Virus record (IMG/VR): IMGVR_UViG_3300031787_000101
Coordinates: 1 to 64,000 of that record
Length of the DNA: 64,000 bases
Origin: a virus
Direction: 5' to 3' (one strand)
The first letter of the stretch is position 1. Each line of letters begins with the position of its first letter. Positions 7,837-29,490 of the stretch are shown piece after piece. Under the pieces are notes generated by a model. It saw only the letters and a program-made list of their open reading frames with translations. It did not search any database and was not told where the DNA came from. Made by a program: the position numbers and the translations under genes.

Positions 7837-7861
7837 TAACAAATTTATTCAAGATTTGTTA
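7837..7861 (+). terminator. Hairpin after stop codon, possible weak terminator
   Basis: TAACAAAT (7837-7844) and ATTTGTTA (7854-7861) form an 8-bp stem with a 9-nt loop immediately after the stop codon. No clean T-run follows (AATAATTCC), so it may be an RNA-end stabiliser rather than a terminator. Confidence 0.3.
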
Positions 7862-7906
7862 ATAATTCCTTAACACACTTTCAACATTCCATACCTATAT
7901 ATTGGT

Positions 7907-8002: not shown

Positions 8003-8043
8003 TTTACACTTTAACCTTTAAAATTTTAGTTTTAAAATTGAGT

Positions 8044-8670: not shown

Positions 8671-9194
8671 ACACGTTTAGAATAACCTACGATTTGGTAG
8701 AAGTCCCTCTCACCATCAATATATTGTTTAACCATAACCAACAGATTTCTAAACATGAACGCTCCTGGTGTTTGTTTTTCACACTTGGAGAACAACTCAA
8801 CAAACGAAATTAAAACTTCAATAGAATAATAACCACATCCTTGTAACTCAAGATACTTTGGTGTTAGTTTATTAACATACTGTAACTGGTAGGTATCTCT
8901 TGATGTCTCACAATTAAATGGTTCGGTTTCATCATAGATTTTTATCAGGTCATCAATAAACCCTTTAATAACATTCGGAGCACATTGTTTCTTAGCAATC
9001 AAATCAACAATCCAATGTGTATGTGATGGTGTCCGTAATCTCTTACCTTCTTCCTTATGTTTTACGATAAAATCCAAATCAGGACGAGCTCCTCTTCCAC
9101 CTTGATAGATAGCAATCTTTGATGTGGGGTCAACTTGCCAAAATGTCAAAGGGGTATGAACTACCCCTTTCTTTTTAAATGTTAGTTCCTTCAT
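8667..9194 (-). CDS. Conserved-looking hypothetical protein (175 aa)
   Basis: A 175-residue soluble protein. Residues about 32-67 contain a compact run, GGRGARPDLDFIVKHKEEG followed by KRLRTPSHTHWIVDLI, with the look of a nucleic-acid- or nucleotide-binding core, but I cannot name the family. The C-terminal half is helical. It has its own promoter (9199-9229) inside the end of the upstream glutaredoxin gene, with +1 predicted one nucleotide before the ATG. Confidence 0.5.
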   Translation of the reverse strand: MKELTFKKKGVVHTPLTFWQVDPTSKIAIYQGGRGARPDLDFIVKHKEEGKRLRTPSHTHWIVDLIAKKQCAPNVIKGFIDDLIKIYDETEPFNCETSRDTYQLQYVNKLTPKYLELQGCGYYSIEVLISFVELFSKCEKQTPGAFMFRNLLVMVKQYIDGERDFYQIVGYSKRV

Positions 9195-9785: not shown

Positions 9786-10127
9786 TTAAATATTTTTACT
9801 TTCTTTTTTTTGTTTCAAAAGTTGTGCAATGAAGAACTTAACCTCATTCAACTTTTCAGCATTATAATATATTTTTATTTTATATTCAACCCCATCAGTT
9901 TTAGATAAATAAATAAAACTACCATTAGGTAGTTTACATATCAAATCAGATATAATTTCACCATCTGAATATTGGGTGGAATTGATAAATACTTTTTGAA
10001 TATTATCCCTTTCAATAAAATCTTTTGGTATAAACTTATGTCCGTCAGATAGTTCTAAGATTGAAAGTAATCCTTCCTTTTCTAAAAACTTTTCTTCAAA
10101 TAGAAATATCTTTTTTTCGTTTACCAT
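9786..10127 (-). CDS. Hypothetical protein (113 aa)
   Basis: A 113-residue soluble protein, beta-rich in the middle (VFINSTQYSDGEIISDLI, FIYLSKTDGVEYKIKIYY) with a charged helical C-terminus ending in a Lys/Ser-rich tail. No family recognised. Its start overlaps the PcfJ-like gene's stop by 7 bp, placing it in the same transcript as the DUF932/PcfJ-like genes upstream and the thioredoxin gene 4 bp downstream. Confidence 0.5.
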   Translation of the reverse strand: MVNEKKIFLFEEKFLEKEGLLSILELSDGHKFIPKDFIERDNIQKVFINSTQYSDGEIISDLICKLPNGSFIYLSKTDGVEYKIKIYYNAEKLNEVKFFIAQLLKQKKESKNI

Positions 10128-11815
10128 TCAAAGTCAATGTAAGGTAAGTCGTCCCCAATGTCAATTGAATTTGTTAAATGTTCCCAGTTAAGTTGTCCGT
10201 CTTTATCAAAAACAAAGTTATATTCTTTTCTTCCACCACCAGTAACAAACTCAGCAATAGGATTACCCCACACTCCGGTAGTGATTGTTTTTAATGTAAC
10301 ATCTAAATAAAAAATTGCATCATCCCAAGTATCATCTAACACATTATTAAACCTTCCAAGTGTCTGAACTCGTTTAAAATTAATTGGTTGGTTAACATTC
10401 ATACCAAACTTACCGATTGACGGTCTATATTCAATTGACGCTCTCTCCCCGTCTTCCTTACGAAGTGATATAATTAATGATGAAGGTCTATCTTGATAAG
10501 TTCTAACACAATTAGACTGATGTACTGACTCATTAACATATTCTTCACTACTTTGTAAAACAACAGGGGTAAATACCATACCATCTTTTGTTATAATTGG
10601 TCTTGAAACTCGTTCAACAAATTCATTGGAGTATTGTCTTGAATATTTTCCTCTGGTGTAAAAGTCAACTTTATCTGACCAAGTACTATGTTCAGCGTTA
10701 AATTCTTTCAAAGTTTTAGACATCCATTTAATCGGCTCGTTTCTTGATAGAACATCAAAAAATCTTACGTGGTCGTAAAAACTATGAGTAGATGCTAAAT
10801 GGTCTGTTTTAGATATTAAGTAAATCTGATAACAATTACTCATATCCCTTTTACTGAAATTTTCAAAGTAATGTCTTACAGGTTGAAATGGTGATTCGTC
10901 AATTTTAGTATTAAAAATAATACACAATTCTTCTTCAGGTCTTTGTAAAATAAAATCTCTCCCAAAGATATCCATCAACATTTTAATACTTTTGAAACAA
11001 GGGTTTTGGACTTTGTGTAACACTTTTTTGATTTTCTCTGAACTTACATTGTGTAATTTCATGTAAGTATCAACCATCTTAAACCCGTTTTTCTGATAAT
11101 CTTTTTTAGTTGGTTTTGGATATACCTTGTAATACCCTCTCCAATTGTCAGGTTTCTTAACACCTTGTTTGTCCAACAAACATCCAAATAAAGACATCGG
11201 TAACTCAGTGTAGTTTAAAACTTTTTCAGCTCCGATTTTAGATAAAAATAGATTAATACCTTCAATAATTTCCAAATTATATTTTTGGGTATCATCTAAC
11301 CCATTCATAAATGAATGATAAGCATCCGTAGTTAACGATATCGGGAATGAGTTTCGTCTAAGAACACTACCCTTACCCTTACCTCTTTTTTTATGGTATT
11401 CAGTGTTTTTACCAACCGTAAAAATATTGGTTTTCTTATTAAATGTAATGTAGTTTAATTTGGTACTTTTACGAAAAAATACTTCTCCAGCCTTTCTATG
11501 TTTCCCACAATAGAATACTTTTAAGCAAATCTTATCCTCATTCTCCTCAACAACAAAAGTACTTCTTTGTACAGTTACCTCACAAAGAGGATTACCATAG
11601 TTTTTTTCAAACTCTTCTTTACTACCATTTACAGATTTATCAAACGTATAAAACAAATGTTTACCATCAAAATGGTCTCTAGGATTTGACTTACGTAATG
11701 TAAATAATGGCTCGTCATCCTCATTAAAATCGGAATTATTCTCCCCCACCGAATTGTAGGGGAGATAGTGACCGACATAATATTTTTCGTTGATGAGTGT
11801 GAATAGGTTGTCCAT
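10121..11815 (-). CDS. PcfJ-like protein
   Basis: A 564-residue protein. The C-terminal third matches the PcfJ-like pattern: a stretch of the kind ESVHQSNCVRTYQ (His and Cys conserved), then LIISLRKEDGERASIEYRP, a QTLGRFNN segment and a final helix. The N-terminal two thirds are basic and of unknown fold. PcfJ was named from the Enterococcus plasmid pCF10 and relatives are common in phages and plasmids; the molecular function is not established. I place the start at 11815 because its ATG overlaps the DUF932 stop (TAATG). Confidence 0.65.
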   Translation of the reverse strand: MDNLFTLINEKYYVGHYLPYNSVGENNSDFNEDDEPLFTLRKSNPRDHFDGKHLFYTFDKSVNGSKEEFEKNYGNPLCEVTVQRSTFVVEENEDKICLKVFYCGKHRKAGEVFFRKSTKLNYITFNKKTNIFTVGKNTEYHKKRGKGKGSVLRRNSFPISLTTDAYHSFMNGLDDTQKYNLEIIEGINLFLSKIGAEKVLNYTELPMSLFGCLLDKQGVKKPDNWRGYYKVYPKPTKKDYQKNGFKMVDTYMKLHNVSSEKIKKVLHKVQNPCFKSIKMLMDIFGRDFILQRPEEELCIIFNTKIDESPFQPVRHYFENFSKRDMSNCYQIYLISKTDHLASTHSFYDHVRFFDVLSRNEPIKWMSKTLKEFNAEHSTWSDKVDFYTRGKYSRQYSNEFVERVSRPIITKDGMVFTPVVLQSSEEYVNESVHQSNCVRTYQDRPSSLIISLRKEDGERASIEYRPSIGKFGMNVNQPINFKRVQTLGRFNNVLDDTWDDAIFYLDVTLKTITTGVWGNPIAEFVTGGGRKEYNFVFDKDGQLNWEHLTNSIDIGDDLPYIDFEW

Positions 11816-15547: not shown

Positions 15548-16387
15548 TCAATAATTCATAATTAATAGTTCTTCACCCATATTTTGGGACTTTCCTTTCT
15601 TCGCAGCCGCCGCTTTAGCGAATTCTTTCTTTTCCCATTTATATTCCTCCTTTGGGAACCACTCATTCAATAACTGAAAATCGTAGTAAGATAAACTAAA
15701 CTTACCCTGAATTCCTTTCAAACAATCTGCTAATCTTTCATGGTCTTCCCTATCAAAATCGTGGTTTGAGTAATAGTTCTCAGTCTTCCAATATGGTGGG
15801 TCAACATAAAAATATGTTGTCGGACTATCAAACTCTTTAATCACGTCTTCAAAATCACCCAATCTAAACTCTGATATTTTATTGAAATGTTCTACCCACT
15901 CAGGTTTAGATAATTTATCTCTAAAGGTAAGATATTTTGACTTATACTTACCCTTCAAATCAATAAAACTTGAGGTCTCAGGTTTTGAACCACTGAAAAC
16001 CTGTGTCAGAACATAGGCATATTTTGCTGCAACACCATAATCAGGATAGTTAATTGTTAAACCATGAGAGAAAATTTCCTTTTGAAACTCATTAAATTGT
16101 TCTTTGTAAACTGGTGGTGTCACTTCCACTCCTTGTTGTTGACACGGAATGTTATTAATCGCAGATAACAAAGTCTCAGGGTTCTGAAGACACATAAACA
16201 AATTATAGTTCAACGGATTGAAGTCGTTATAAACAACTCTTTTCAAATTAGGATATAATTTCAAATCCATATTGAAGAAACACCAAAACATACCACCAAA
16301 CGTTTCAACATACGTTTCCATATCTGTTGGGTAGAATGGGACAATCCACTTACCTATCTTACTCTTACCACCAATATAACTTAACAT
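15548..16387 (-). CDS. dam: DNA adenine methyltransferase, Dam/D12 class
   Basis: A 279-residue D12-class enzyme. The AdoMet-binding motif starts the protein (YIGGKSKIG at residues 4-12, the YxGGK form), and the catalytic motif DPPYW is at about residue 197 in TTYFYVDPPYW. Length and motif order (alpha class) match phage T4 Dam and bacterial Dam. No cognate endonuclease is visible. With the beta-class enzyme at 2914, the phage carries two unrelated orphan DNA methyltransferases. A promoter with exact spacing lies just upstream (16400-16430). Confidence 0.9.
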   Translation of the reverse strand: MLSYIGGKSKIGKWIVPFYPTDMETYVETFGGMFWCFFNMDLKLYPNLKRVVYNDFNPLNYNLFMCLQNPETLLSAINNIPCQQQGVEVTPPVYKEQFNEFQKEIFSHGLTINYPDYGVAAKYAYVLTQVFSGSKPETSSFIDLKGKYKSKYLTFRDKLSKPEWVEHFNKISEFRLGDFEDVIKEFDSPTTYFYVDPPYWKTENYYSNHDFDREDHERLADCLKGIQGKFSLSYYDFQLLNEWFPKEEYKWEKKEFAKAAAAKKGKSQNMGEELLIMNY

Positions 16388-17163: not shown

Positions 17164-17334
17164 ATGGAAAACATGGAAAATTTAAAAAATTCAGAAGAAA
17201 AAACTTGTACTAAATGTCAAAAAACAAGACAAAAAATGACACCATATATTATTATGTCTGTAGTTGTTTTAGGTTTAATAATTTATGCTGTAGTCGACAT
17301 CACAAAAAACATTATTGAATTACTTGCTAAGTAA
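17164..17334 (+). CDS. Small membrane protein with CxxC motif (56 aa)
   Basis: A 56-residue protein: a charged N-terminus with CTKC (residues 15-18), one hydrophobic span of about 20 residues (YIIMSVVVLGLIIYAVV), and a short C-terminal helix. The two cysteines before the membrane span could bind a metal or form a disulphide. It starts immediately after TATAAATA on its own strand. Its last 15 bp overlap the end of the convergent 710-residue glycosyltransferase gene, and both stops lie inside one terminator stem. Confidence 0.5.
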   Translation: MENMENLKNSEEKTCTKCQKTRQKMTPYIIMSVVVLGLIIYAVVDITKNIIELLAK

Positions 17335-17348
17335 TTCAATAATTTTTT
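17311..17348. terminator. Bidirectional terminator containing both stop codons
   Basis: A perfect 15-bp inverted repeat (17311-17325 with 17329-17343, loop GCT) followed by five T residues on the plus strand, and preceded by an A-run (17304-17309) that serves the minus strand. The TAA of the plus-strand membrane protein (17332-17334) and the TAA of the minus-strand glycosyltransferase (17322-17320) occupy symmetrical positions inside the stem. Confidence 0.85.
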
Positions 17349-19452
17349 CTTTTACCATATCCGATGTTATCTTTTTAGAACATTCAAACATCTTGTCATT
17401 TCCTTTATTTATAGGACACCAATTCCAATCACCTGGGTCTAATCTAAATTTATTAGCACATCCTCTACAAGTATTTTCAGGTGCGCTTACTTTATAAACG
17501 TTTTCATAAGGTTCGTTAAACTCTTCCGTAAATCCTGATATCAATACCGTTGGGATATCCAAAGCCCATGTAACCCATGAAATACCACTTGATATTCCAA
17601 TAAAGAATTCACAGGTGGATAGTTCTTCTATCAGTTTATAGATTGAGCCAGGAGGGTTTTGTTTAGCACCTTTAGGATAATAATTACCCATATACCCATC
17701 TTCCTCTTTTGAATAGATAATCACCTCATAACCAAGAGATATTAGATAATCAGTAATCTCTTGCCACCCATTTGGGTTGTTCCAGTATTTTGATTGGGCA
17801 GTTGAGTGAATACCAAGTCCAACTCGTTTTTTCTTTATCTTATTAGGATTTTTAATTAAAGGTTTTACCTCTTTATATTCTAATCCTAAAATATCTGTTG
17901 CAGTTTTTTGTAGTGGGCCTAATTTGAAATCACTTGGGTGTCTATCCGTTCTAACATTATCACCATCATAGAACCAACCTATCTCATACATTGCATATAG
18001 ATTATGAACGGTACTTCCAGGTGAAACAAATTGTATCTCAGGATATTGTTTTACAAATAAATCATTAAAGAATGTTGAACAAATAACCTTACAATTGTGT
18101 TTCTTTCTGAATTCCTCAGCGTAAGGTACCCAAGCAAATGTATCACCCAAAGATTTTGAATCTAATGCAATATATACTCGTTTGTTTTCAGCGTTGTATT
18201 TCTTTTCACTGATTAAATTACCTTCAGAATAAATTTTTAAAGTATATTCATCAAAATACTTCTTACTTAATCTGACCCACATATTACAACCAATCTCCTC
18301 ACGATATTCACAGTTACCATCCTGATTCCAAAACTCAACCAAATATCGTTTATCACTATTACCTTTAATCTCTACCAACGCTCCGTTGATGTAATGATTA
18401 ATTACTTCAATTTTTTCAACCATCTCTTTTGGTTTTATTTCAGTATTTTCAAATACTTTATCAAATCTTTGTTTTGTCTCAAGACTATTCAAATTTTTTC
18501 TACTGTTAATAAGGTCTTCGTAAATTCTAACCATCCTTCTGGTAATAACACTCCAATCGTATTTTTGTCTATCTAATTCAGTGTTATTTAAATATAAATC
18601 ATAGTTGTCAATTACTTGTTTAATACCACTAACTATTTGATTTACATCTCTTTCAACTACAACCATTCCTTCTATTGTTTGTGAACCCAAATAAGTACCA
18701 ACAACTGGCATATTACAAGACACAGCTTCTAATAATGTTAGGTTTGGGTGACCAGCTTCTAACATAGAAGGATGTAAGAATATTGAATGACTTTTATATA
18801 ATTCTAATATCTGTTCTTCATTCGGATTTGAGAACATTAAAGTTAATTTATCGTAATTTAATAAGTCGTTATGATGTTCAAAAAATATTCTATTGTTTTC
18901 AGGGCCGGCAACAGTAATAGGTAAATCTAATTTGATTGCCGCTTCAATAGCATATCTAAATCCTTTTCTATCGTAGGTTGAATCACCTCCAATACCATTG
19001 TTCGCTAAACATAATAATTTATGTTCAGTTCTTTTTGGGTTATCATTCTTAAAGAACTCTGTATTAACCCCGTGTGATAAATAAAACAATTTATCTGTTT
19101 CATCAAAGTAATCAACTAAAAACTCAGCATGAGTAAAAGATACCACAGACCTTTTAATTGCCTCTAAATTTTGTTGGTAGTTAGATGAGTCCTTACCATA
19201 ATAAACAACGTGGTGGTCATGTAACGAGAAGATATAAGGGATACCTCTGTTTGCAGCCTCAATAGCTAAGTTAGCCATATGAATATGAATAATATCACTA
19301 CTATTAATATCCACTTCATTAAGATATTTTATATCACATTGGTGTCCTAATTCTTTAATGTTATTGTAATATTCCCATATTACTTTTTCAACTGCACCCC
19401 ATCCATTCGGTGGTATTGTAATTATTCCTGGTGTTACTTGTGTTATTCTCAT
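17320..19452 (-). CDS. GT4 glycosyltransferase fused to TibC/BAHT-type O-heptosyltransferase
   Basis: A 710-residue two-enzyme protein. Residues 1-about 330 are a GT4 glycosyltransferase: GGW-like N-terminal loop (PPNGWGAVEKVIWEYY), HIHMAN strand, LSHGVN, and the donor-site segment FLHPSMLEAGHPNLTLLEA. A linker beta domain follows, then a GT9-like C-terminal half carrying the hallmarks of bacterial autotransporter heptosyltransferases (TIGR04414, TibC/Aah): IALDSKSLGDTFAW near 434, HSTAQSKYWNNPNGW, FIGISSGISW, and the metal-binding cysteines CRGC (about 662), WCP and FECSK. TibC-type enzymes attach heptose to Ser/Thr of repeat-rich surface proteins. It is the last gene of the nine-gene glycan operon and ends in a strong terminator. 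Likely acceptor: the phage's own Ser/Thr-rich fibres (inference). Confidence 0.85.
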   Translation of the reverse strand: MRITQVTPGIITIPPNGWGAVEKVIWEYYNNIKELGHQCDIKYLNEVDINSSDIIHIHMANLAIEAANRGIPYIFSLHDHHVVYYGKDSSNYQQNLEAIKRSVVSFTHAEFLVDYFDETDKLFYLSHGVNTEFFKNDNPKRTEHKLLCLANNGIGGDSTYDRKGFRYAIEAAIKLDLPITVAGPENNRIFFEHHNDLLNYDKLTLMFSNPNEEQILELYKSHSIFLHPSMLEAGHPNLTLLEAVSCNMPVVGTYLGSQTIEGMVVVERDVNQIVSGIKQVIDNYDLYLNNTELDRQKYDWSVITRRMVRIYEDLINSRKNLNSLETKQRFDKVFENTEIKPKEMVEKIEVINHYINGALVEIKGNSDKRYLVEFWNQDGNCEYREEIGCNMWVRLSKKYFDEYTLKIYSEGNLISEKKYNAENKRVYIALDSKSLGDTFAWVPYAEEFRKKHNCKVICSTFFNDLFVKQYPEIQFVSPGSTVHNLYAMYEIGWFYDGDNVRTDRHPSDFKLGPLQKTATDILGLEYKEVKPLIKNPNKIKKKRVGLGIHSTAQSKYWNNPNGWQEITDYLISLGYEVIIYSKEEDGYMGNYYPKGAKQNPPGSIYKLIEELSTCEFFIGISSGISWVTWALDIPTVLISGFTEEFNEPYENVYKVSAPENTCRGCANKFRLDPGDWNWCPINKGNDKMFECSKKITSDMVKEKIIELLSK

Positions 19453-19470
19453 ATTACTATAATAATATTT

Positions 19471-20496
19471 TTAGTTATTAACATAAACAGGTATATTAAA
19501 ATTTAAAGACAAATCTTCATATTCTTTTAATGTATTGTTATATATTTGATTATCATCAATAAAAATTCTAATTTCAACGTCGTCAGTATATAATTGATTA
19601 TCATACGGGTCAATAATATCAAATTTATACCAACCATTACTAAAAGTTTCAAAATATTTAAGAATAGTCCTACCTTTATTAAAATTTTGTAAAATTGCAA
19701 TTTTAATTACAAATTTATTTTCAGACAATAATTCAACAAAAAAATCAGATATATTTTTTTTAATTTTTATTTCAAAATTTGTTAATTTTTCAGTTAAATT
19801 AAAATCAACTATTTCAGTTTCAAAATTTTTTAAGTATTCACCATAATGTATATCACCAAATGACTGACTCGAATCTCCCCATGAATTAAAAATTTCATCA
19901 GAATGATTAGTATGTCGTTTACTAATTTTTTTGTGGGTAAATAAATCTTTATTTATATAAATTTTTTTATCTACTATTTTGTATTTTCTATTAAAAATAG
20001 AATATGATATGTGTTTTAAATTTTCCGATTTTGACAAATAATAAATGTATTTGTCATAATTATAACCCCACCAAACAGCCTTTTTAAAATGAGATAACCT
20101 TATTGCAAAATCATCATCTTCAAATTCAGCCCCAATAAATTTCTCATCTAGCATTCCAACCCTTCTAATTAATTCTTTCGAAAATCCAAAAAATCCAAAA
20201 CTAACAACTGACACAAAACAATACCCATTTGAAAGTTTATCTATCATAAATTCAATATCTTTAGATGTGAAATTTGTTTTAGGATTACAAAAAATCATAA
20301 ATTCACTGTCAGTATCATCTATCGCATCATTAATCATTTGAGAAAATGAAACATACTTAGATAGATTCCTGTCTTTTCTATACCATCTTTCAATTTGAAA
20401 TTTATCCGAAAGTTTTGTTAATTCACATTCTTGTCTTTCAATATCTGTATCATACTGTGACAAAAAACAAAAAGCAAAATTATTAATTACTATCAT
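19471..20496 (-). CDS. GT-A-type glycosyltransferase (GT2-like) with C-terminal extension
   Basis: A 341-residue protein. The first 200 residues have features of a GT-A fold: SEFMIFCNPKTNF in place of the usual DDD/DxD strand, SFGFFGFSKELIRRVGMLDE, and FEDDDFAIRLSHF, the acceptor-site motif typical of GT2 proteins. The donor-binding DxD is weak, so activity is uncertain. The C-terminal 120 residues form a beta-rich domain resembling those found at the ends of its neighbours (segments such as GWYKFDIIDPYDNQLYTDDV). It is co-transcribed with its neighbours, with an 18-bp gap to the next gene. Base composition is more AT-rich than the flanking genes. Confidence 0.7.
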   Translation of the reverse strand: MIVINNFAFCFLSQYDTDIERQECELTKLSDKFQIERWYRKDRNLSKYVSFSQMINDAIDDTDSEFMIFCNPKTNFTSKDIEFMIDKLSNGYCFVSVVSFGFFGFSKELIRRVGMLDEKFIGAEFEDDDFAIRLSHFKKAVWWGYNYDKYIYYLSKSENLKHISYSIFNRKYKIVDKKIYINKDLFTHKKISKRHTNHSDEIFNSWGDSSQSFGDIHYGEYLKNFETEIVDFNLTEKLTNFEIKIKKNISDFFVELLSENKFVIKIAILQNFNKGRTILKYFETFSNGWYKFDIIDPYDNQLYTDDVEIRIFIDDNQIYNNTLKEYEDLSLNFNIPVYVNN

Positions 20497-20508
20497 AATA
20501 TTTTTAAT

Positions 20509-21228
20509 TTATTTTAAAAATATTTTATTTTCTTTATCAATAAATGACTCACCATCAGCCTGAGTCGTTATTCTCTTCTTTAGAACACCCATAGTTAATC
20601 TCTGTTCCGCACATATAATATTAAAAAATGTGTCAGCACAGTCCCATCTATGCGTTCTCAACTGATTCATAATTGTTTTACGTGATTTTTTTGAGAACAT
20701 AATACATTGTAAACCAATTATTTTATTTGTTATAAACAATAAATCCTGATTAGGTATTTCTCTAACAACATCTGATTGATGCCATCCGTAATCTAAAGTC
20801 TTAGTATCACCAAATGAAAAATAAGAAATATCTTCCTGATTAACAATACTACAAACCTGATTAACTTTATCTATAAATTCTTCAATTGGAACTTCAATAA
20901 TACAGTCCCCTTCACATACAATTAAAAAATCCAAATCGTTATCAAATTCTGATAATATCCCAATTTTAAACGCCTCAAAACATCCATAGTGAGCCGGAGT
21001 TAAAGCGTTTCCATATTCAGGGTCATTAACGTCTTCATATTTACCCATCCTAACATTATGTGGTCTAACACTGGTATGAACAGGTGGTAATGAAATATAT
21101 AATTCATTTTGATGTAACACATATTCAATTCCATAAGGAATTACCTGTTGTACAGATTTTCTCGATTCTTTTTCTCTGTGTTCATTTTGTGTTGTCTGTA
21201 AATGAACTAATTTAATTTTATAATTCAT
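20509..21228 (-). CDS. Glycosyltransferase-like protein (GT25-type layout)
   Basis: A 239-residue protein. YGNALTPAHYGCFEAFKIGI (about residues 73-92) corresponds to the LTxGExGCxxSH acceptor region of GT25 enzymes, and DLDFLIVCEGDCII supplies an acidic metal-binding strand in place of the usual EDD. A C-terminal helix-rich part contains HRWDCADTFFN. I favour a GT25-like or related GT-A glycosyltransferase; the family call is by pattern. Two bp separate its start region from the operon neighbour downstream of it on the minus strand. Confidence 0.6.
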   Translation of the reverse strand: MNYKIKLVHLQTTQNEHREKESRKSVQQVIPYGIEYVLHQNELYISLPPVHTSVRPHNVRMGKYEDVNDPEYGNALTPAHYGCFEAFKIGILSEFDNDLDFLIVCEGDCIIEVPIEEFIDKVNQVCSIVNQEDISYFSFGDTKTLDYGWHQSDVVREIPNQDLLFITNKIIGLQCIMFSKKSRKTIMNQLRTHRWDCADTFFNIICAEQRLTMGVLKKRITTQADGESFIDKENKIFLK

Positions 21229-21229
21229 A

Positions 21230-21802
21230 TCAATTTTTTATAAACGAACCCCATAAAACTTGTTTAAAATCATCATACATGTATGTACTTAAATTAAGTT
21301 CAGGTAAATATCTTTCAATATTTTTATAATGCGACTCTGAGTTTGTTGGCCAATTTATTCTTTGTTTAATAACATTATATTCTTCATCACTATGTGAATA
21401 ATCGTGAAGCATTATAACATCATTCTTTTTCAAGTACTTTGAATATAATCGAAACTCAAGTTCCTTGTCCCCACCATCACATAAAAAAAGAGTTCTCCCT
21501 GAATTATTAATTAAATCACGAATATCTCTCATAATATCAATATCAAAACAATCTCCAATTCTTAATTCAGTGTCTTTAAGATTATTAACTTCACAATAAT
21601 CAGGATTAATATCGTAAGAAATTATTTTACAATTGTCTGATTTATTTTCAGACAACCATAAAGTGAACGCACCTGTAAATGTTCCAATTTCAATTATTAA
21701 TTCGAAATTTTTTAATATTTTAGGAAAAACATCAACAACAAATTGACTTTGTGCCGACCTATGATAAGTGGTCTTTGGCACCCATAAAAAATTGTAATCC
21801 AT
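21230..21802 (-). CDS. Class I SAM-dependent methyltransferase (CmcI/Methyltransf_24-like)
   Basis: A 190-residue Rossmann-fold methyltransferase: motif I IIEIGTFTGAFTLWLSE near residues 35-51, an acidic residue after strand 2 (SYDINPDYC), RIGDCFD for strand 3, and TLFLCDGGDKELEF then VIMLHDYSH for strands 4 and 5. The layout resembles CmcI-type and Methyltransf_24 proteins that methylate sugars or small molecules. In this operon the most likely job is O-methylation of a glycan. Its ATG overlaps the stop of the upstream gene by one base. Confidence 0.75.
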   Translation of the reverse strand: MDYNFLWVPKTTYHRSAQSQFVVDVFPKILKNFELIIEIGTFTGAFTLWLSENKSDNCKIISYDINPDYCEVNNLKDTELRIGDCFDIDIMRDIRDLINNSGRTLFLCDGGDKELEFRLYSKYLKKNDVIMLHDYSHSDEEYNVIKQRINWPTNSESHYKNIERYLPELNLSTYMYDDFKQVLWGSFIKN

Positions 21803-22569
21803 TATCTTAAAGAATTGTTTAAATTATATGATGAATTTTCATCTCCAATATGATAACAAATTCTTTCTGAATGTAAAAAAGATTTGAATCTTTTTGAGAA
21901 TCTTATTGCAAATTCTAATTCAAAAGAATCCATATTATTATTAAAAGTGTCAATTTGATTTAATTTATTTACATCATGAATTGCCGGTCTAAAACCAAAG
22001 TATGGCCAATTAATATATTTAATCCACAATCCCTTAACCGCATGTAAATCTTCTTCAACAGTATCATCAAACAAAGGTTCGTTTAAATAATGTTTATCAG
22101 AATAATACCATTCCCAAAAATTACCAATCACTCTCGGTTGAAATAACTCTTTTGGGAATATCTTTTTTTTCCAAGAGAATCCTACCATACCAACATCTTC
22201 ATTATTTTTTAATAATTCAACTCCTTCATAAAGGTTAAATGGATTTTCAAAAAACCAATCATCTTCCAAATGAAAAACATAATCAATATTAAAAAATTTA
22301 ATATCTTCTTTCCATTTTTTCATTATTTCCAAATGTCTTCGATTAGTATTAAATGAATTAGTATTAAATCTTTTAGACACTATTAAAGTTTCAGGAAATA
22401 ATCTATTCAGTAAAGAAAACATTATATCTCTATCTTCTAAAGAAGAAGAATCATCGTAGTGGATTATAATATCAATTAAATTTAAATCTTCACATTCTTT
22501 GGTAAAAGAAATTATTGTTTTTTCAAATAAATCAATTCGTTTACAAGTTGTTATAGTTAATCCAATCAT
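21802..22569 (-). CDS. GT-A glycosyltransferase (GT2-like)
   Basis: A 255-residue glycosyltransferase. The N-terminal strand and first loop are GLTITTCKRIDLFEKTI, then IIIHYDDSS, and the metal/donor-binding acid motif sits in YVFHLEDDWFF (about residues 95-105). The acceptor part contains MVGFSWKKK and GLWIKYINWPYFGFRPA. Single catalytic domain, no membrane span. It overlaps the preceding GT2 gene by 4 bp (ATGA) and the following methyltransferase by 1 bp. Confidence 0.75.
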   Translation of the reverse strand: MIGLTITTCKRIDLFEKTIISFTKECEDLNLIDIIIHYDDSSSLEDRDIMFSLLNRLFPETLIVSKRFNTNSFNTNRRHLEIMKKWKEDIKFFNIDYVFHLEDDWFFENPFNLYEGVELLKNNEDVGMVGFSWKKKIFPKELFQPRVIGNFWEWYYSDKHYLNEPLFDDTVEEDLHAVKGLWIKYINWPYFGFRPAIHDVNKLNQIDTFNNNMDSFELEFAIRFSKRFKSFLHSERICYHIGDENSSYNLNNSLR

Positions 22570-24302
22570 GAAAAAATAATGTAATCAAGAATATTTTTAT
22601 TTATAAAATCATATAAAAATTCATCATCTTGAGTATCGTACACTGATATTTTTTCAACTTTATTTTCAAAAATATTAAATGACCAATGTCCATAATTTTC
22701 TAACCCGTGGTATATAGTTTCTAAACTACCATCAATATAGTTAACAACTATTTTTCTTTCCGACCTAAAATGATTGTAATTGTAGGATAATAACATTATA
22801 GAATTTTGTCCTGACATATTATAAAGTTTTGTAGAACATCCTTTGAATTTTGAAGATACATTACTAACAGTTGTTTCCGTATTCCATAAGGTATTTTGGA
22901 AATCAGTGTTCATATCAACTTCTCCGTCTTTTCGAATTATTAAACCATAATCTTTTCTATTTATGTTATCATAAAGATATTTTTCAACATTTATAAAGTC
23001 AGTACCATACCCATTATTTTGTAAATAATTTTTATAATCTTCCTCACAATTAATCCTATTAATTATCTGTTGGAAGTATTCTATTTCACAATAAAAATAA
23101 TGGAACGAAACATCTCTACCTTCATTAAAATAAAACATTCCCTTTTTGTTTTGAGTAGAACAAATCACTGGTACAGTTGTCATATATTCATAACCTTCTT
23201 CACTATATAAATCATCAACTTCAATTCTTTGGAAATGTGTAAACCCAAATGACTTACACAAATCTAATGAGTTAAACAAATTAACCATAACAGGTAATCC
23301 ATGTTTTTGTATTGTGTTTGTAACTTCATGAGTTGTTAATGAACCAAGGTTTTTCCAAAAAATAACTGGTTCGGAATTAGTGTATTCACCTTCAAAAAGA
23401 ATATTATTTGAGTTATATAAATGATAATCAACAATTTTTAATATATGTTCAGGAACAATAGTATTAGACACAAGAAGTATTGTATGGTTATACTTTTTTA
23501 AGTTATTAACACATAACTCCAACTTATTTAAAACATTTTCATTATGAATAAAACAATCAACTATTGTTATTGTTTTAAACTCATCTTTAATATTTTGTTT
23601 TTTGAGTTCATTAGAAACTATTATGTTTTTTTTGTTTTTTTCCTCTTCTGAAACATTTGAAAACATACCATCATTTGATATTCGATAAATTCCCCCACAT
23701 TTATGAATACACTTAATTAAACCGTGTTTACTAATTTCATAATTGAGTGGCCAATCAACATAAGGTAAATTTGTAAAATAATCCTTTATTAAATTTGGAA
23801 TGTTTCTAAACACCCTTGCAAAAGATGCGTGATTGATAGTTAATAAATCATTTGTTGTTACATCGTCAAGAAATGAACTAATAAACAATTCAGGCACTGT
23901 AGGTATCTTGGTACCATCAGGATACAAGTATCTTGTTCCTGTACAGACCATACTATAATTTGGGCTGTTTTCTAAAAACTCAACTTCTTCATTTAAGATT
24001 GTATAATTATCAAAATAATCATCACCATCAATATATGCAATGTATTTTGTTTTACAGTAATTTAATAAAGTTCTAATATTTTCAAGAGCACCTAAATTAA
24101 CATCACCATTTAAAATAACTAAATCAGGATACTTTTCTTTTAATTCAACTAAAACATCTTTAGTATTGTCTGTTGAACAATCATCTCTAACTACTACCTG
24201 AAAACCATAGGTGATTTTTTGTTTATAAATTGAATCAACACACTCCTTGAGGTATTTCTCAAAATTATATGACGATACAATGACCGAAAGTAATTTTTCC
24301 AT
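22566..24302 (-). CDS. GT2 glycosyltransferase with a second C-terminal module
   Basis: A 578-residue protein. Residues 1-about 230 are a classic GT2 domain: LLSVIVSSYNFEKYLKECVD, VVVRDDCSTDNTK and the DxD-type motif IAYIDGDDYF at about 90. The remainder is not a second GT2: it includes a Rossmann-like segment (TITIVDCFIHNENVLNKLEL), a long unassigned part, and a beta-rich C-terminus (SIMLLSYNYNHFRSERKIVV) similar in style to the terminal beta domains of the 341- and 710-residue proteins. It overlaps the acetyltransferase gene by one base. Confidence 0.8.
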   Translation of the reverse strand: MEKLLSVIVSSYNFEKYLKECVDSIYKQKITYGFQVVVRDDCSTDNTKDVLVELKEKYPDLVILNGDVNLGALENIRTLLNYCKTKYIAYIDGDDYFDNYTILNEEVEFLENSPNYSMVCTGTRYLYPDGTKIPTVPELFISSFLDDVTTNDLLTINHASFARVFRNIPNLIKDYFTNLPYVDWPLNYEISKHGLIKCIHKCGGIYRISNDGMFSNVSEEEKNKKNIIVSNELKKQNIKDEFKTITIVDCFIHNENVLNKLELCVNNLKKYNHTILLVSNTIVPEHILKIVDYHLYNSNNILFEGEYTNSEPVIFWKNLGSLTTHEVTNTIQKHGLPVMVNLFNSLDLCKSFGFTHFQRIEVDDLYSEEGYEYMTTVPVICSTQNKKGMFYFNEGRDVSFHYFYCEIEYFQQIINRINCEEDYKNYLQNNGYGTDFINVEKYLYDNINRKDYGLIIRKDGEVDMNTDFQNTLWNTETTVSNVSSKFKGCSTKLYNMSGQNSIMLLSYNYNHFRSERKIVVNYIDGSLETIYHGLENYGHWSFNIFENKVEKISVYDTQDDEFLYDFINKNILDYIIFS

Positions 24303-24889
24303 TATTTAATTTTATTTACAGGAACCCCAACATAAGTTCCAGGTTTATCTATATCTTTAACAACACTTCCATTCATCCCAATTATAACATCATCACAAAT
24401 TGTTATCTTTTCTCTTATTGATGAGTTATTACCCATATAACAATTATCACCAATTAAAACACTACCTGAAACAACAGAACCAGCCATAGCACTAAAACAA
24501 TCACCTATTACAACATCGTGTCCGATATTAACATTTCTATTTAAAATAGCATGATTACCAATCTTAACATTAGTAGTTATAACACAATTAGCTCCAATAA
24601 ATGAACCTTCACCAATTACAATATTTCTATTCAGTAAAATTGATGATGGGTGGATAAATGAAAAATATTTAGTATCTTCAGGTAATGATTTTTGAATTCT
24701 TGACCTAACCTGACTATCAGCAATTGCAATCATAATTGAATATTCTTTTGAATTAAATTGTGATAATGGTAATGTTTTATCCTCCCCTTTGAAATACTCA
24801 TCTTCAACAAATCTAGTTACATCATAATTTGTATGTGCAATTACTTCCCTTAAATGACCTCCATTACCAATAAACGCTTTCTTAATCAT
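24302..24889 (-). CDS. NeuD/PglD-type sugar O- or N-acetyltransferase
   Basis: A 195-residue protein of the NeuD/PglD family. An N-terminal Rossmann-like substrate domain (KKAFIGNGGHLREVI; GNGGH replaces the usual GAGGH) is followed by about 100 residues of left-handed hexapeptide repeats (IVIGEGSFIGANCVITTN, then ILNRNVNIGHDVVIGD) and the family C-terminus DKPGTYVGVPVNKIK. The catalytic histidine is in NIGHDV. These enzymes transfer acetyl from acetyl-CoA to an amino or hydroxyl sugar. With the DegT-type domain next door it points to synthesis of an N-acylated amino sugar. It overlaps its neighbours by 1 and 4 bp. Confidence 0.88.
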   Translation of the reverse strand: MIKKAFIGNGGHLREVIAHTNYDVTRFVEDEYFKGEDKTLPLSQFNSKEYSIMIAIADSQVRSRIQKSLPEDTKYFSFIHPSSILLNRNIVIGEGSFIGANCVITTNVKIGNHAILNRNVNIGHDVVIGDCFSAMAGSVVSGSVLIGDNCYMGNNSSIREKITICDDVIIGMNGSVVKDIDKPGTYVGVPVNKIK

Positions 24890-25509
24890 ATTTTTTTTAA
24901 ATAAAATGCATCACCCCAAACACCGTCAACATTCCATGTCTCTTGTCTTTGAAATCCAAATGGCAATAAAAACTCATCAAGTTGTTCAATAGACGGACAA
25001 CCATCATACATTTCAATCAAATTAAACTCTGTAAATATATAATCAATATTCTTTAAAGTATTAATTGAACCTTTAAGAGCATTTAACTCATATCCTTGTG
25101 TATCTAAAACTAAAACATTACAAGAAGTTATATTATAAAAATCTAATGTACTTAAAGTAATGTTAATAGTGTTTTCATCACTAAATTTAATATGTGGGTA
25201 AAAACTTTGATGTTCCTTAGGTTTCAATAATGAAGAACTTTGTTGTCCATTACCTTCATCAAGATACATTTTGTGTATACCATTTCTTTCACCTATCGCA
25301 ACATTATAATAAAATGTGTTAGGTTTACCATTTAAATTTTTAGATAGTTCTTTATACACATGTGGTATAGGTTCAAACCAATATGTAGATATCATACCAA
25401 ATGTTCTTAAATATTCATCATACTCTTGACCAACATGGGCACCAACATGAATTACACCAGTAACATTAAAGTTGTACTTATGTTTATATTCGTTGAAACC
25501 TACAATCAT
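24886..25509 (-). CDS. FkbM-family methyltransferase
   Basis: A 207-residue FkbM methyltransferase: motif I GVIHVGAHVGQEYDEY (about residues 17-32), STYWFEPIPHVYKEL for motif II, VAIGERNGIHKMYLDEGN, and VLVLDTQGYELNALKGS, the family's DxxGxE motif. Such enzymes O-methylate sugars and polyketides. It overlaps the trifunctional gene by 4 bp (ATGA) and the acetyltransferase gene by 4 bp. A second, independent FkbM domain lies inside the neighbouring trifunctional protein, so this island encodes two. Confidence 0.87.
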   Translation of the reverse strand: MIVGFNEYKHKYNFNVTGVIHVGAHVGQEYDEYLRTFGMISTYWFEPIPHVYKELSKNLNGKPNTFYYNVAIGERNGIHKMYLDEGNGQQSSSLLKPKEHQSFYPHIKFSDENTINITLSTLDFYNITSCNVLVLDTQGYELNALKGSINTLKNIDYIFTEFNLIEMYDGCPSIEQLDEFLLPFGFQRQETWNVDGVWGDAFYLKKI

Positions 25510-28106
25510 TTATAGATATCAAATTTTGATAGGTCAGGGTATGGTAATTCCAAATCCTCGTTGTGTTTAGGTGTACCATCCATATTATAGAACTGATTCA
25601 TAAGTAATAAACCTCTTGAAGCAATTTCAGGCATCATGTAAAAATTCCATCCTAACATGTCAAAATTATCATCATGATATGAAACTTCATTTCTACCTGA
25701 GTATCTCGCCCGTTTAAACCATTTATAAGCCTCAAAGTCATCAGTTAGGATTGCTCCACCCTTACCTAGTTTCAAGTGTTTATACGGTCCAGTAAAAGAT
25801 AAACACATATGAGTTCCTGGTATATACATGTCATTGGTGAATCTTAGTGCTGAATCCCAAACATTTGTTGGTGATAGTTGGTAAGCTCCTTTAATCGTAG
25901 AACCATAGACTGGTTCAAATTCAACTTTACCACCAGCATGGATAATCTCACAAGGAACTGATGGATATGTTCTACTTGGTATTTTAATTGTTTTACCAGT
26001 AATTTTTTCATAATACAATGCTAAGAACAAAGCGTTACTTTGATTATCAATCGTAACTGCGTAAGGTGCTCCTGTATATTCTGCTAATCGTTCTTCAAAA
26101 CTCTTTGTAACATCATAAACGGATTTAGATAGTGTACCAGGTGTTCTTAATTTAACATTTTTAGGTTTAGCAAAAATAACTCCGTGTTTAGCATTTTTAT
26201 TTGACTTAGTTTTTTTACCTAATTCATAAACAATAATATCATATTCAAAATTATTTCTATCTAATTTTTCAAGTATAATATTAATTTCACCGTTAGTATT
26301 TTCATGAAACTCAATCATAAATCTATCCACCAATCCAATTTGTTCATCAGTAATTGATTCAAAAATTGGGTACTCACCACCCTCAATATCACATTTAAAT
26401 AATGATATCCTACCATAGTTATTATCTTTGTAGATATCATCAATAGTAATAGTATCACAACTAATTAAATTATTAAGTTGTCCATATTCTCCCACATTAC
26501 CGTCAAAAACATTTGACCCAATAGTTGAATTTTCTTTTGAAAATCTGAAATCAATCTTGGTATGTTCCTTATAAACAGGATTCATATAGATAGTTGATTT
26601 ATTCAAATCACCATCTAAATGATATTCAATACTTTCTCTTAAGTATGGATTTGCTTCAACTAAAATAACTTTTTTAGCGTTTACCGAATACATATACTTA
26701 GCAAATAACCCAACATTAGCACCAATATCTATTACCGTATCAAGATTTTCTAACTTTAAATCATCAAAACATCTATCAACAAAAAACTCATAATAGTTAA
26801 TGTAGTTACAGTCCAAAGGTTTAAATTTAAACTCAGGTATTCTTGGGTAAAAATTAGGATTAACAATCAACTCTTGACCAAAAACTAACTCATTTGTTTG
26901 AGAATCATAAAACTCAACTAAGAATCCTCTAAAATTACGATTATCTTTGAATTTCTTAATGTGTATTGGAATAGGTATTGTCCAATAAAATATTGGGTAC
27001 TCCAATGGTAAATTAAACCAATACATTGGAGCCTTTGAAGTCATATCTCTAATACTAACATTAAAATCAAACTTTTGGTTACCGGTATAGTTAATAGTAA
27101 TTTGATTATTATCACCATTGAAACCAAAACTGAAAAGAGAGTCAATACCCCCCACATTTAACACATCCATCATATTATTTACATCTTTATCTATATCTCC
27201 AGTTAAAAATGTAACTTGAGGTAGTTTATCATATTTTCCACAATACACATCCAAATTATACATCATCATAGGAATACCATATTCAATGGCTTCCTTAATT
27301 GCAATTGGATTTAATTCTTTATTATTTCTATCACCTTTTGATGGGAACATGAACAAATCGGACGCTTCTAAAAATTCATTTACATTATCCTTTTCACCCC
27401 AAACAATACAGTTTTCAGGTTTATTGTTCATCAATGGTTCCCAATAACTTCTAAAGTTATCTGCTTGATTTCCAATAAAATGAAATTTAATTTTGTTGTT
27501 TTCTAACTTACGAGCAATTTCAAAAATGTATTTTTGATTTTTTCTTTCAGTGAATAACCCGACATTAACAACGTGTTTCCACCCTTTATCGAACCCAAGT
27601 TTTTCTTGGAATAATTCCTTTCTCTTTTCTCGGTTTTCAATAGGATACTCAATTACCTCATAAGGTATGTCAAACATTGAATACTGAATAGCATTAAACA
27701 CACTAACAAAAATAAACTTGTCAGGAAACCAAACCTTAGATGTTGGTTTGAAACTTGAGTCGTGTGTTGTTTCAAATATTTTGTATGAACGGTTTTGTCT
27801 ATAAATTTGTCTTGTAATGTTGTTATCCATGAAAAATTCAGGGAACTCCTCCATCGATATAATATCAGGTTGGAAATCGTTAATAACATTAATCAAAACA
27901 TTCTTATCATCCCATAAAGTGATAAGATTATCTTCACCAATCATATTTTTAATTCTGTTCTTCTGAACAACAAAATCCCATGAATAACATCCGTATTCAA
28001 TACATTTTATAATATAATCATCTTTAAGAAGTTGAATCTTATTTGTAGTAACCTGTGGAAGTCCCCCTGTAGATAGATGTGGGACTATAAATAATATTTT
28101 CTTCAT
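25506..28106 (-). CDS. Trifunctional protein: GT4 glycosyltransferase + FkbM methyltransferase + DegT-like aminotransferase domain
   Basis: A 866-residue fusion from the ATG at 28106 (six codons after an alternative ATG). Residues 1-about 290: GT4 glycosyltransferase (VPHLSTGGLPQV, VGLFTERKNQKYIF, FMFPSKGDRNNKELNPIAIK with the donor-site E). About 330-430: beta-rich linker. About 430-640: FkbM methyltransferase with VIDIGANVGLFAKYMY near 456 and FKCDIEGGEYPIFE. About 665-866: DegT/DnrJ/EryC1-type PLP fold with GAPYAVTIDNQSNALFLALYY near 680, an acid in NVWDSALRF, and the PLP lysine in SFTGPYKHLKLGKGGAI near 775. The DegT part is only about 200 residues instead of about 370 and lacks the normal C-terminal domain, so its activity is uncertain. 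First gene of the nine-gene operon. Confidence 0.82.
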   Translation of the reverse strand: MKKILFIVPHLSTGGLPQVTTNKIQLLKDDYIIKCIEYGCYSWDFVVQKNRIKNMIGEDNLITLWDDKNVLINVINDFQPDIISMEEFPEFFMDNNITRQIYRQNRSYKIFETTHDSSFKPTSKVWFPDKFIFVSVFNAIQYSMFDIPYEVIEYPIENREKRKELFQEKLGFDKGWKHVVNVGLFTERKNQKYIFEIARKLENNKIKFHFIGNQADNFRSYWEPLMNNKPENCIVWGEKDNVNEFLEASDLFMFPSKGDRNNKELNPIAIKEAIEYGIPMMMYNLDVYCGKYDKLPQVTFLTGDIDKDVNNMMDVLNVGGIDSLFSFGFNGDNNQITINYTGNQKFDFNVSIRDMTSKAPMYWFNLPLEYPIFYWTIPIPIHIKKFKDNRNFRGFLVEFYDSQTNELVFGQELIVNPNFYPRIPEFKFKPLDCNYINYYEFFVDRCFDDLKLENLDTVIDIGANVGLFAKYMYSVNAKKVILVEANPYLRESIEYHLDGDLNKSTIYMNPVYKEHTKIDFRFSKENSTIGSNVFDGNVGEYGQLNNLISCDTITIDDIYKDNNYGRISLFKCDIEGGEYPIFESITDEQIGLVDRFMIEFHENTNGEINIILEKLDRNNFEYDIIVYELGKKTKSNKNAKHGVIFAKPKNVKLRTPGTLSKSVYDVTKSFEERLAEYTGAPYAVTIDNQSNALFLALYYEKITGKTIKIPSRTYPSVPCEIIHAGGKVEFEPVYGSTIKGAYQLSPTNVWDSALRFTNDMYIPGTHMCLSFTGPYKHLKLGKGGAILTDDFEAYKWFKRARYSGRNEVSYHDDNFDMLGWNFYMMPEIASRGLLLMNQFYNMDGTPKHNEDLELPYPDLSKFDIYK

Positions 28107-28130
28107 ACCTAAAAAAAATAACAATATTTA

Positions 28131-28569: not shown

Positions 28570-29490
28570 CTACCCCCTCTTATGTTTAACATACATCTTA
28601 ACATAAAAATCCCCAAGACCTTCATTTCTAAAACCCTTACCTTTAATACGTAAGGGTTTTTGTGTATCTATAGTTTCAGGTAATTTAATATTCAAATTTC
28701 CCGATGGGTGTGGTATATCTAAATTATCTTTATTAAAGTCATCTAAAGACATTTGATAGTTGTAAACTAAATCATTATTAAGTTTTTCAAAACCATTTTG
28801 TTCAACCACTTGAACTTTCAAAATTGCATCCCCAAACATACCATCGTGCCAGTCACCATAACCTGAAGCTTTAATCATTTGACCATCGCTAATTCCATGT
28901 GGGATATTTAAATTAATGGTTTGCATTTCATTATTCTTACCTTCACCCGCACATGAATAACAAACATTTTTAAGATTAAATCCCTTACCATTACAACTAT
29001 TACAAGTAACTTGAAAAATGTTTGAGAAGAATGAATTACCAACTCTTTGAGTTATTCTACCAGACCCATTACAAGTGTTACAAGTAGTTCTTTCACCACC
29101 TTGTCCCCCACAACTATTACACATATTTTTACGTTGGAATCTTATGTCTATGTTTTTACTCAAGAATGAATCAAGAGTTCCTATCTGAACATCAATAACT
29201 TTATCAGGTGCCTTTCTAACTCTTTGCCCTGTCATGTTTGAAAAGAAGTCCCCAAACGATGAAAATGGGTCACCTCCCATATCACCAAAAGGATTACTTC
29301 TTCTCATATCATAATCTTTTCTTTTTTGTTCATCACCTAAGGTATCATAGGCTTCAGATATTTTTTTAAATATTTCTTCATCTCCACCTTTATCAGGGTG
29401 TGATTCAACGGCTTTTTTTCTATAAGCCTTTTTAATTTCATCCTGTGATGCCGTTTCTGTAACACCTAAAATATCGTAAAAATTTTCCAA
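28570..29490 (-). CDS. dnaJ: DnaJ-type co-chaperone
   Basis: A 306-residue type I J-protein. The J domain (1-about 65) has the HPD motif (SHPDKGGD) and YDILGV start; a short Gly/Phe-rich linker (NPFGDMGGDPFSSFGDFF) follows; the zinc domain has all four CxxCxGxG repeats (CNSCGGQG, CNTCNGSG, CNSCNGKG, CYSCAGEG); and the C-terminal peptide-binding domains end at a normal but slightly shortened position. It would recruit host DnaK (Hsp70) to phage substrates, for example in replication-complex remodelling or capsid and fibre folding. No DnaK or GrpE is in the window. It lies 2 bp from the convergent exported protein gene. Confidence 0.95.
   Translation of the reverse strand: MENFYDILGVTETASQDEIKKAYRKKAVESHPDKGGDEEIFKKISEAYDTLGDEQKRKDYDMRRSNPFGDMGGDPFSSFGDFFSNMTGQRVRKAPDKVIDVQIGTLDSFLSKNIDIRFQRKNMCNSCGGQGGERTTCNTCNGSGRITQRVGNSFFSNIFQVTCNSCNGKGFNLKNVCYSCAGEGKNNEMQTINLNIPHGISDGQMIKASGYGDWHDGMFGDAILKVQVVEQNGFEKLNNDLVYNYQMSLDDFNKDNLDIPHPSGNLNIKLPETIDTQKPLRIKGKGFRNEGLGDFYVKMYVKHKRG

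Follow-up and report, generated by a model that had tools for sequence, protein, structure and literature searches.

A phage glycan island with a TibC-type O-glycosyltransferase and a Ser/Thr-rich collagen-like fibre as its probable acceptor

Introduction

To which molecules do the glycosyltransferases of large phages attach their sugars? We addressed this question in a stretch of viral DNA, hereafter the window, that comprises bases 1-64,000 of the 66,143-base IMG/VR virus record IMGVR_UViG_3300031787_000101. On its minus strand lie an island of nine leftward open reading frames (ORFs; 17320-28124), which includes a putative TibC-type O-glycosyltransferase, and a giant gene for a collagen-like fibre. 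In two earlier studies, the glycosyltransferases of large phages are discussed mainly as modifiers of DNA or of the host surface, and in one of them virion glycosylation comes up as well (PMC7029224, PMC12619734). The original prediction for this DNA named an O-heptosyltransferase that modifies two repeat proteins of the phage itself, a Gly-Ser/Thr fibre and a Pro-Thr protein. From our sequence comparisons, an enzyme devoted to sugar-coating the Ser/Thr residues of long collagen-like fibres seems to be encoded by large phages and also by some bacteria, and this coat may keep Pro-free fibres stiff and protected.

Results

A TibC-type domain in the glycan island

The enzyme in question is encoded by the leftmost gene of the island.

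17320-19452, minus strand: fusion of GT4, beta-barrel and TibC-type O-glycosyltransferase, 710 aa (TibC part about 345-710); TIGR04414 E = 1.4e-78, PDB 4rap E = 3.9e-54, Foldseek 4rap E = 3.6e-32, GT4 by Pfam

Residues 369-705 matched TIGR04414 (autotransporter strand-loop-strand O-heptosyltransferase) with 264.5 bits (cut-off 200), and a PDB sequence search at E 0.01 returned only the TibC entries 4rap and 4rb4 (E = 1.1e-53). An AlphaFold2 model of the full-length protein had a mean predicted local distance difference test (pLDDT) score of 71; 26 of the 30 ten-residue blocks in residues 351-650 exceeded 85, and the GT4 half was weak (ten-residue means 27-81), so that only the TibC part of the model was used. 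This part contained the N-terminal beta-barrel (strands at 349-418) and the GT-B fold. The structure search ranked 4rap first (target-normalised template-modelling score, TMt, 0.81; 375 columns against the 381-residue chain 4rap_D), and the next protein after the TibC chains was the heptosyltransferase WaaC (E = 6.9e-8). The profile search and the structure prediction against TibC thus both gave the expected match without refuting the assignment, and the reading of this gene as GT4 fused to a TibC/Aah-type domain was confirmed.

We compared key residues with those of the reference TibC (PMC4358343) in 119 rows (29 phage rows, 80 cellular rows and 10 further ones from phages). The catalytic Asp110, whose column was located through 4rb4, the D110A entry, was invariant in all rows, as were the sugar-site residues Lys230 and Trp305. 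All four predicted metal-binding cysteines of the iron finger (Cys339, Cys342, Cys358 and Cys370) were likewise kept throughout. The window and all 29 phage rows kept the sugar-site Thr226, which was replaced by Ser in 44 of the 80 cellular rows and in 4 of the 10 further phage ones. In TibC, Arg286 touches the adenine and has been linked to ADP-sugar use (PMC4358343). One of the 29 phage rows had Arg in this column, and the other 28 had V, L, I or A (Leu in the window). Arg was retained by 70 of the 80 cellular rows and by 6 of the 10 further phage ones. These sequence and model comparisons support the TibC-type enzyme class well. Because the adenine-reading Arg286 is lost, heptose is unproven; the residue pattern does not support ADP-heptose as the donor, and the "heptosyl" part of the original prediction was thus not supported. 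A Pfam scan that covered 19 proteins of the window found no autotransporter profile in them.

A Pro-free Gly-Ser/Thr fibre and its association with the enzyme

The proposed acceptor lies near the right-hand end of the window.

56273-63697, minus strand: giant fibre gene, proposed acceptor; Pfam Collagen 607 bits, several PHROGs tail-fibre families; ORF start at 64183 in the full record
56351-60925, minus strand: Gly-Ser/Thr-X repeat region, proposed glycosylation sites; 1,525 residues with 787 Ser, 159 Thr, 514 Gly and 0 Pro

The fibre repeat, with Gly at every third residue, comprised 496 triplets in nine runs, within which Ser/Thr made up 92% of the X and Y positions. The length of the region agreed with the roughly 1,535 residues predicted. 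In one E. coli phage collagen, stability has been attributed to Pro at X and to charged residues (PMC3368898); Pro or ionic stabilisation was not found in the repeat sequence (Pro 0, charged residues 0.008 of X/Y). On the opposite strand, 56319-60938 (+) is a 1,539-aa ORF antisense to the repeat that looks like a by-product of the repeat codons, and antisense ORFs of this kind may mislead gene callers.

The Collagen profile exceeded its cut-off in all 15 TibC-positive phage records (chosen from 79 loci) and in two of three GenBank phage records tested. The base rate was taken from the 50 longest records of a random IMG/VR sample obtained by a 15-mer scan. Collagen exceeded its cut-off in 4 of these 50, and in 3 of the 10 records of at least 60 kb, two of which (G020 and G025) resemble near-copies; TIGR04414 exceeded its cut-off in none of the 50 and gave one weak match. 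The reverse sample was picked solely by a Ser/Thr-rich Gly-X-Y DNA pattern and consisted of the 50 longest records among the matches listed. Here TIGR04414 exceeded its cut-off in 20 of 50 records, one of which (G003) belongs also to the TibC set, and in 15 of 24 of at least 60 kb (Fisher P = 2e-7 for 20/50 vs 0/50 and 7e-4 for 15/24 vs 0/10, for records that are not independent and include many fragments).

As a lineage marker we used the window protein 38650-41031, taken for a gp46-like recombination protein, and scored 43 related records. TibC and collagen occurred together in 12, TibC without collagen in 0, collagen without TibC in 11 and neither in 20 (Fisher P = 1e-4). Five of the eleven (G115, G117, G118, G119 and G124) had a gp46 identical to that of TibC-positive records and are probably fragments of those phages. 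A contrast of 12/12 with 0/26 was discarded, as 20 of the 26 have no collagen whatever. With the fragments left out, the gp46 tree required 6 changes for TibC and 7 for collagen. Five records with mutually identical gp46 (G127-G130 and G148, up to 309 kb) carried neither.

Fibre composition was read in ten TibC-positive and six TibC-negative records, whole or for the collagen stretch. Over the 12 TibC-positive records, nine were covered whole and G080, G002 and G116 in part; of the six TibC-negative non-fragments, G131, G133, G135, G136 and G140 were covered whole and G147 to position 180,000 of 183,755. In the TibC-positive records, Ser/Thr made up 0.51-0.97 of X and Y in Gly-X-Y runs, and every one of the 12 had at least one fibre ORF with Ser/Thr of at least 0.82 and Pro of at most 0.02. 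The TibC-negative non-fragments had Ser/Thr of 0.09-0.23, Pro of 0.11-0.17 and, in five, charged residues of 0.32-0.40, with no fibre ORF above Ser/Thr 0.28; by sequence, their fibres follow the known Pro/ionic design. The split gave P = 9e-4 for rows that are not independent, the TibC-negative ones forming two groups on the tree.

A close pair on the gp46 tree, G125 and G131, had three Pro-rich fibres in common (end regions 70-91% identical, Ser/Thr 0.15-0.28). G125 additionally carried a TibC fusion gene convergent with a Ser/Thr fibre gene 25 bp away, whose 1,291-aa product, cut by the contig end, had Ser/Thr 0.91 and Pro 0. G131, which may itself be a fragment, was read over its whole 117.6 kb; no TIGR04414 match reached the threshold there, and its fibres were the three Pro-rich ones alone.

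G137, G143 and G144 share an identical gp46, with TibC and collagen only in G143; either the records are fragments, or the region of fibre and glycan genes is exchanged rapidly. Four records (G082, G126, G151 and G152) had two TibC-domain matches over the cut-off each and a short third, which might serve two glycans or two fibres. Among GenBank phage records, the gp46-like protein matched only LR756508, Mel-JY01, LR756501 and LR756503, the last three also with a TibC domain.

The Pro-Thr protein

The Pro-Thr stretch was present, but measured 136 residues by the rule used here and not the 158 predicted; it belongs to an ORF at 45266-47722 (+), on the strand opposite to most neighbours, that also encodes a lactonase-like beta-propeller. 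As an acceptor this protein was not supported: Pro-Thr-rich ORFs occurred in the TibC-positive G001 and G082, but also in the TibC-negative G136. They were absent from the TibC-negative G140 and from the 180 kb scanned of the TibC-negative G147. Comparative genomics thus strongly supported one of the two predicted acceptors, the Gly-Ser/Thr fibre, but not the other.

Enzyme and repeat genes form pairs in phages and bacteria

In several phage groups, enzyme and fibre genes were direct neighbours. In five loci (L060, L064, L074, L079 and L081) a Ser/Thr fibre gene (Ser/Thr 0.94-0.99) lay 57-63 bp downstream of the enzyme gene on the same strand; the two genes were 40 bp apart in L387 and 0 bp apart in L391, and on opposite strands at 117-745 bp in L021, L025, L028 and L029. 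Where a single Gly-X-Y gene was found, it lay about 2.2 kb from a TibC domain in G143 (256 kb), 3.1 kb in G149 (191 kb) and 2.0 kb in G082 (72 kb). The same kind of TibC gene was present in Microcystis phage Mel-JY01 (PP395634.1), recorded from the cyanobacterium Microcystis elabens. The record names its TibC fusion (4750-8430) "methyltransferase FkbM"; 1.7 kb away is a Ser/Thr-rich Gly-X-Y ORF (2-3052; Ser/Thr 0.80) that is annotated only at its end (2519-3052), with opposite-strand coding sequences over most of the remainder.

Among bacteria, the best 80 cellular loci were taken, and L095 and L096, which group with phages in the enzyme tree, were set aside. A Ser/Thr-rich Gly-X-Y ORF lay 8-985 bp from a stand-alone TibC gene in 13 of the 15 loci L097-L111 (all except L097 and L108), compared with 0 of the 63 autotransporter-type loci L112-L174 (P = 5e-13), three of which had other Gly-X-Y runs with Ser/Thr of at most 0.10. 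Most of the bacterial neighbours were small proteins that contained GTSGSS-type repeats and began with what looked by eye like a signal or lipoprotein sequence; the pairs came from Methylobacter luteus, other Methylococcaceae and metagenome-assembled genomes (MAGs) of further Gammaproteobacteria and of Burkholderiales. In L104, for example, the enzyme is encoded at 9950-11089 and the repeat protein at 8560-8988; the Methylobacter luteus pair is that of L098.

In whole-genome scans for strict repeat matches, with contigs matched by coordinates, all matches were no more than about 2 kb away from the enzyme in eight genomes (G161, G162, G166, G167, G168, G169, G171 and G173), as did 12 of 13 in G165; in G164 the matches listed (8 of 23) were at the enzyme locus. 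Matches in G163 lay about 17 kb from the enzyme, the single match in G160 was elsewhere, and G172 had none; the genomes of L097 (G159) and L108 (G170) had none and two, respectively. Among 17 genomes with autotransporter-type enzymes, G186 contained real repeats, G179 a single match not readable as Ser/Thr repeats, and G176 three matches, fewer than the reversed control.

In a TibC tree from a quick search with a midpoint root, the 17 autotransporter-type rows, including TibC, formed one clade (Shimodaira-Hasegawa approximate likelihood-ratio support 99). Phages and repeat-adjacent bacteria were separate from it (fork 88), with the bacteria at three positions. The autotransporter side also took in L108 and the phage enzyme L385. 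L096, from a contig binned as Bacteroidetes, grouped with phage L031 and is probably a phage contig in a MAG.

Other enzymes of the island

The remaining eight ORFs of the island are as follows.

19471-20496, minus strand: island protein, 341 aa, without Pfam, NCBIfam or PHROGs match
20509-21228, minus strand: probable GT-A fold glycosyltransferase by predicted fold, 239 aa; relatives upstream of stand-alone TibC genes
21230-21802, minus strand: S-adenosylmethionine methyltransferase-like protein, 190 aa; FtsJ E = 5.2e-5, 23.7 bits (cut-off 24.1), Methyltransf_24 also under cut-off
21802-22569, minus strand: possible GT2-like protein, 255 aa; PF13712 E = 0.044, two weak Pfam matches in all
22566-24302, minus strand: GT2 glycosyltransferase with an extra part behind the GT2 domain; PF00535 E = 2.5e-22
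24302-24889, minus strand: PglD/NeuD-like acetyltransferase; TIGR03570 147.1 bits (cut-off 160.8), hexapeptide repeats and PglD_N over Pfam cut-off
24886-25509, minus strand: FkbM methyltransferase; PF05050 E = 1.5e-16
25506-28124, minus strand: GT4, FkbM and short DegT-like protein, 872 aa; Pfam

The nine ORFs were as tightly packed as predicted, with gaps of 18, 12 and 1 bp followed by overlaps of 1-4 bp. At the predicted island end, 28106, the 25506 ORF has its first ATG, but the ORF itself runs from a TTG at 28124, 18 bp upstream. Profiles placed the two expected FkbM domains in 24886 and 25506 and the DegT-like domain, a short one, in 25506. The acetyltransferase was PglD/NeuD-like, but its score against the NeuD model stayed below the cut-off, and the label "CmcI-like" was not supported for the 21230 methyltransferase, which gave sub-threshold FtsJ and Methyltransf_24 matches. 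Profiles recovered three of the five glycosyltransferase proteins claimed, but 20509 resembled GT-A enzymes by predicted fold only, 19471 had no match and 21802 was weakly GT2-like. For 20509, Pfam, NCBIfam and PHROGs gave no match at the limits used. The structure nearest to its model (mean pLDDT 71.5, nine sequences) was the human collagen galactosyltransferase GLT25D1 (E = 1.2e-6, query-normalised score TMq 0.49, root-mean-square deviation 6.9), followed by many other glycosyltransferases; this model makes a GT-A fold probable, and the resemblance to GLT25D1 is no proof of a collagen enzyme.

Fusions at 31 representative TibC loci linked the island enzymes to the TibC domain. The GT4 part of 25506 was fused to it in eight phage loci (L023, L025, L028, L029, L030, L042, L046 and L052). 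In five others (L054, L057, L063, L068 and L076) a 25506-type GT4 was joined to a C-terminal 20509-like domain (25-28% identity to 20509) in the gene that directly precedes a stand-alone TibC gene. What follows GT2 in 22566 showed a weaker likeness (23-31% identity, E = 2e-8 to 6e-6) to a domain fused to TibC in eight further loci. At these 31 loci, 19471 and 21230 had no relative beyond the window's lineage, that of 19471 being only in L003, the same phage. By these sequence relationships, the island enzymes and the TibC domain belong together. A search by hhalign for the TibC beta-barrel in other island proteins was dropped (19471, E = 0.046, probability 1%; 22566, E = 0.15, probability below 1%; 25506, weak, E = 4e-4, probability 34%).

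Elsewhere in the window, a DnaJ-like protein (by eye) at 28570-29490 adjoins the island, two proteins at 2914-3771 and 15548-16387 resemble DNA methyltransferases by eye, and the product of 50617-52647 gave weak matches to SprB-repeat and Hoc-like head-decoration proteins.

Discussion

The comparative genomics indicates that the phage's own Gly-Ser/Thr-X repeat is probably the acceptor, with a glycan extended and decorated by the island. The TibC-type domain would put the first sugar on many repeat Ser/Thr side chains in the cytoplasm of the infected cell, the glycan would be lengthened by the fused GT4 and the remaining glycosyltransferases of the island, the methyltransferases and the acetyltransferase would decorate it, and the decorated chains would afterwards assemble into the fibre; we infer this order of steps. 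That the glycans stabilise the rod in place of Pro and charged residues is a more tentative proposal, which we regard as somewhat doubtful. Variable decorations might also shield the fibre or tune adsorption, a similarly tentative suggestion made because it fits the variable set of partner enzymes.

Several results weigh against this acceptor. The enzyme and the fibre are about 28 kb apart in the window and about 38 kb apart in G001, a 242-kb phage with a TibC domain identical to that of the window, and 24 of 41 distinct TibC loci (ten of them of the window's lineage) had no Gly-X-Y gene in the flank examined. LR756504 has a TibC domain and no Collagen match. In the Ser/Thr Gly-X-Y sample, 29 of 50 records among the matches listed, some of which may be fragments, lacked a TIGR04414 match, and one more reached 193 bits, under the cut-off. 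When only gp46-lineage records of at least 150 kb were kept, 13 remained (4/0/3/6; P = 0.07). Pairs on the tree were too few for significance, with about 4.4 of 5 in agreement and none opposite (median P = 0.125) without the fragments, and 4.5 of 8 in agreement and none opposite (median P = 0.0625) for all 43 rows. GT4 (PF00534) exceeded its cut-off in the same 12 TibC-positive records and one fragment, so that TibC and GT4 are inseparable in this lineage. Outside it the composition split was not clean: TibC-positive G071 was mostly Pro-rich in the stretch read (L271: Ser/Thr 0.17, Pro 0.34), and several records without TIGR04414 were Ser/Thr-rich, for example L296 (148 kb).

Proteins of the GT2, GT4, NeuD and FkbM kinds are common in surface glycan loci. 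The island might accordingly remodel a host surface glycan (O-antigen or capsule) against superinfection, with the fibre co-occurring as part of a shared host-recognition region, as pelagimyophage glycosyltransferases near tail fibres have been interpreted (PMC7029224). We consider this improbable. No 19-residue window exceeded 1.5 on the Kyte-Doolittle scale in any of the nine island proteins, which makes a membrane segment unlikely; the characterised TibC family modifies proteins (PMC4358343), the bacterial stand-alone enzymes are likewise paired with repeat proteins, and fibre composition tracks TibC status in the gp46 lineage. Slightly less probable again is that the TibC domain modifies another virion or host protein while Ser/Thr-rich Gly-X-Y fibres merely travel along. 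The distance of tens of kilobases in the window's lineage and the one TibC-positive record without collagen would fit this, but the repeat is the feature common to otherwise differing bacterial neighbours, and direct gene pairs occur in several phage groups.

Hypermodification of phage DNA, reported for phage glycosyltransferases (PMC12619734), is the least probable of the three, and unlikely in the window phage. A thymidylate-synthase-family gene was present in 12 of 28 TibC-positive records, but neither in the window's relative G001 nor in G002; Tet_JBP gave no match in the 28 records, though control genomes gave none either, and the TibC family glycosylates proteins.

The window enzyme resembles the BAHT enzymes (TibC/AAH; TIGR04414) in sequence family, fold, catalytic Asp, Lys, Trp, four-Cys iron finger and beta-barrel, and BAHT genes often stand before their acceptor gene (PMC4358343). 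It differs from them in its proposed acceptor, a Gly-Ser/Thr-X repeat and not an autotransporter, in its fusion to other glycosyltransferases, in the lost adenine-contacting Arg and in its position outside the autotransporter-type clade. Mimivirus L230, a collagen lysyl hydroxylase/glucosyltransferase, is also a case of virus-encoded glycosylation of viral collagen-like proteins, but is set apart by its description: it puts glucose onto hydroxylysine and contains a hydroxylase domain (PMC4691112). Mycobacteriophages carry glycans on capsid and tail tube subunits, which are different acceptors, and moraphages are likewise jumbo aquatic phages with putative glycosyltransferases in four core orthogroups and, in some, DnaJ; the words "heptosyl" and "collagen" are absent from the text of that study, and its passages on these phages name no fibre acceptor (PMC12619734). 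E. coli EPclA is a trimeric Gly-X-Y phage fibre, as the window fibre may be, but is rich in Pro and charge and unglycosylated as recombinant protein; Thr glycosylation is named there as an alternative collagen stabiliser not seen in EPclA (PMC3368898). In the open-access literature (titles and starts of abstracts, preprints and most subscription journals lying outside), we found no paper that describes phage or collagen-like proteins as substrates of TibC-type enzymes, and nothing on Mel-JY01. Galactosyl-threonine stabilises a worm collagen.

It is possible, though we would not yet favour it, that these systems amount to a glycan-built collagen, in which Pro-free Gly-Ser/Thr-X rods of phages and some bacteria would be stabilised by dense O-glycosylation through a dedicated TibC-type enzyme, beside hydroxyproline and proline/ionic pairs, and phage lineages would change from one design to the other when enzyme and fibre are gained or lost as a unit. 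The finding provides a testable acceptor for the glycosyltransferase islands of large phages. If it is true, the TibC family would extend from autotransporters to collagen-like repeats, both viral and bacterial; the bacterial enzyme/repeat pairs would be compact tools to make O-glycosylated repeat proteins; and glycans would form part of the design of phage fibres, with possible effects on adsorption, shielding and stability.

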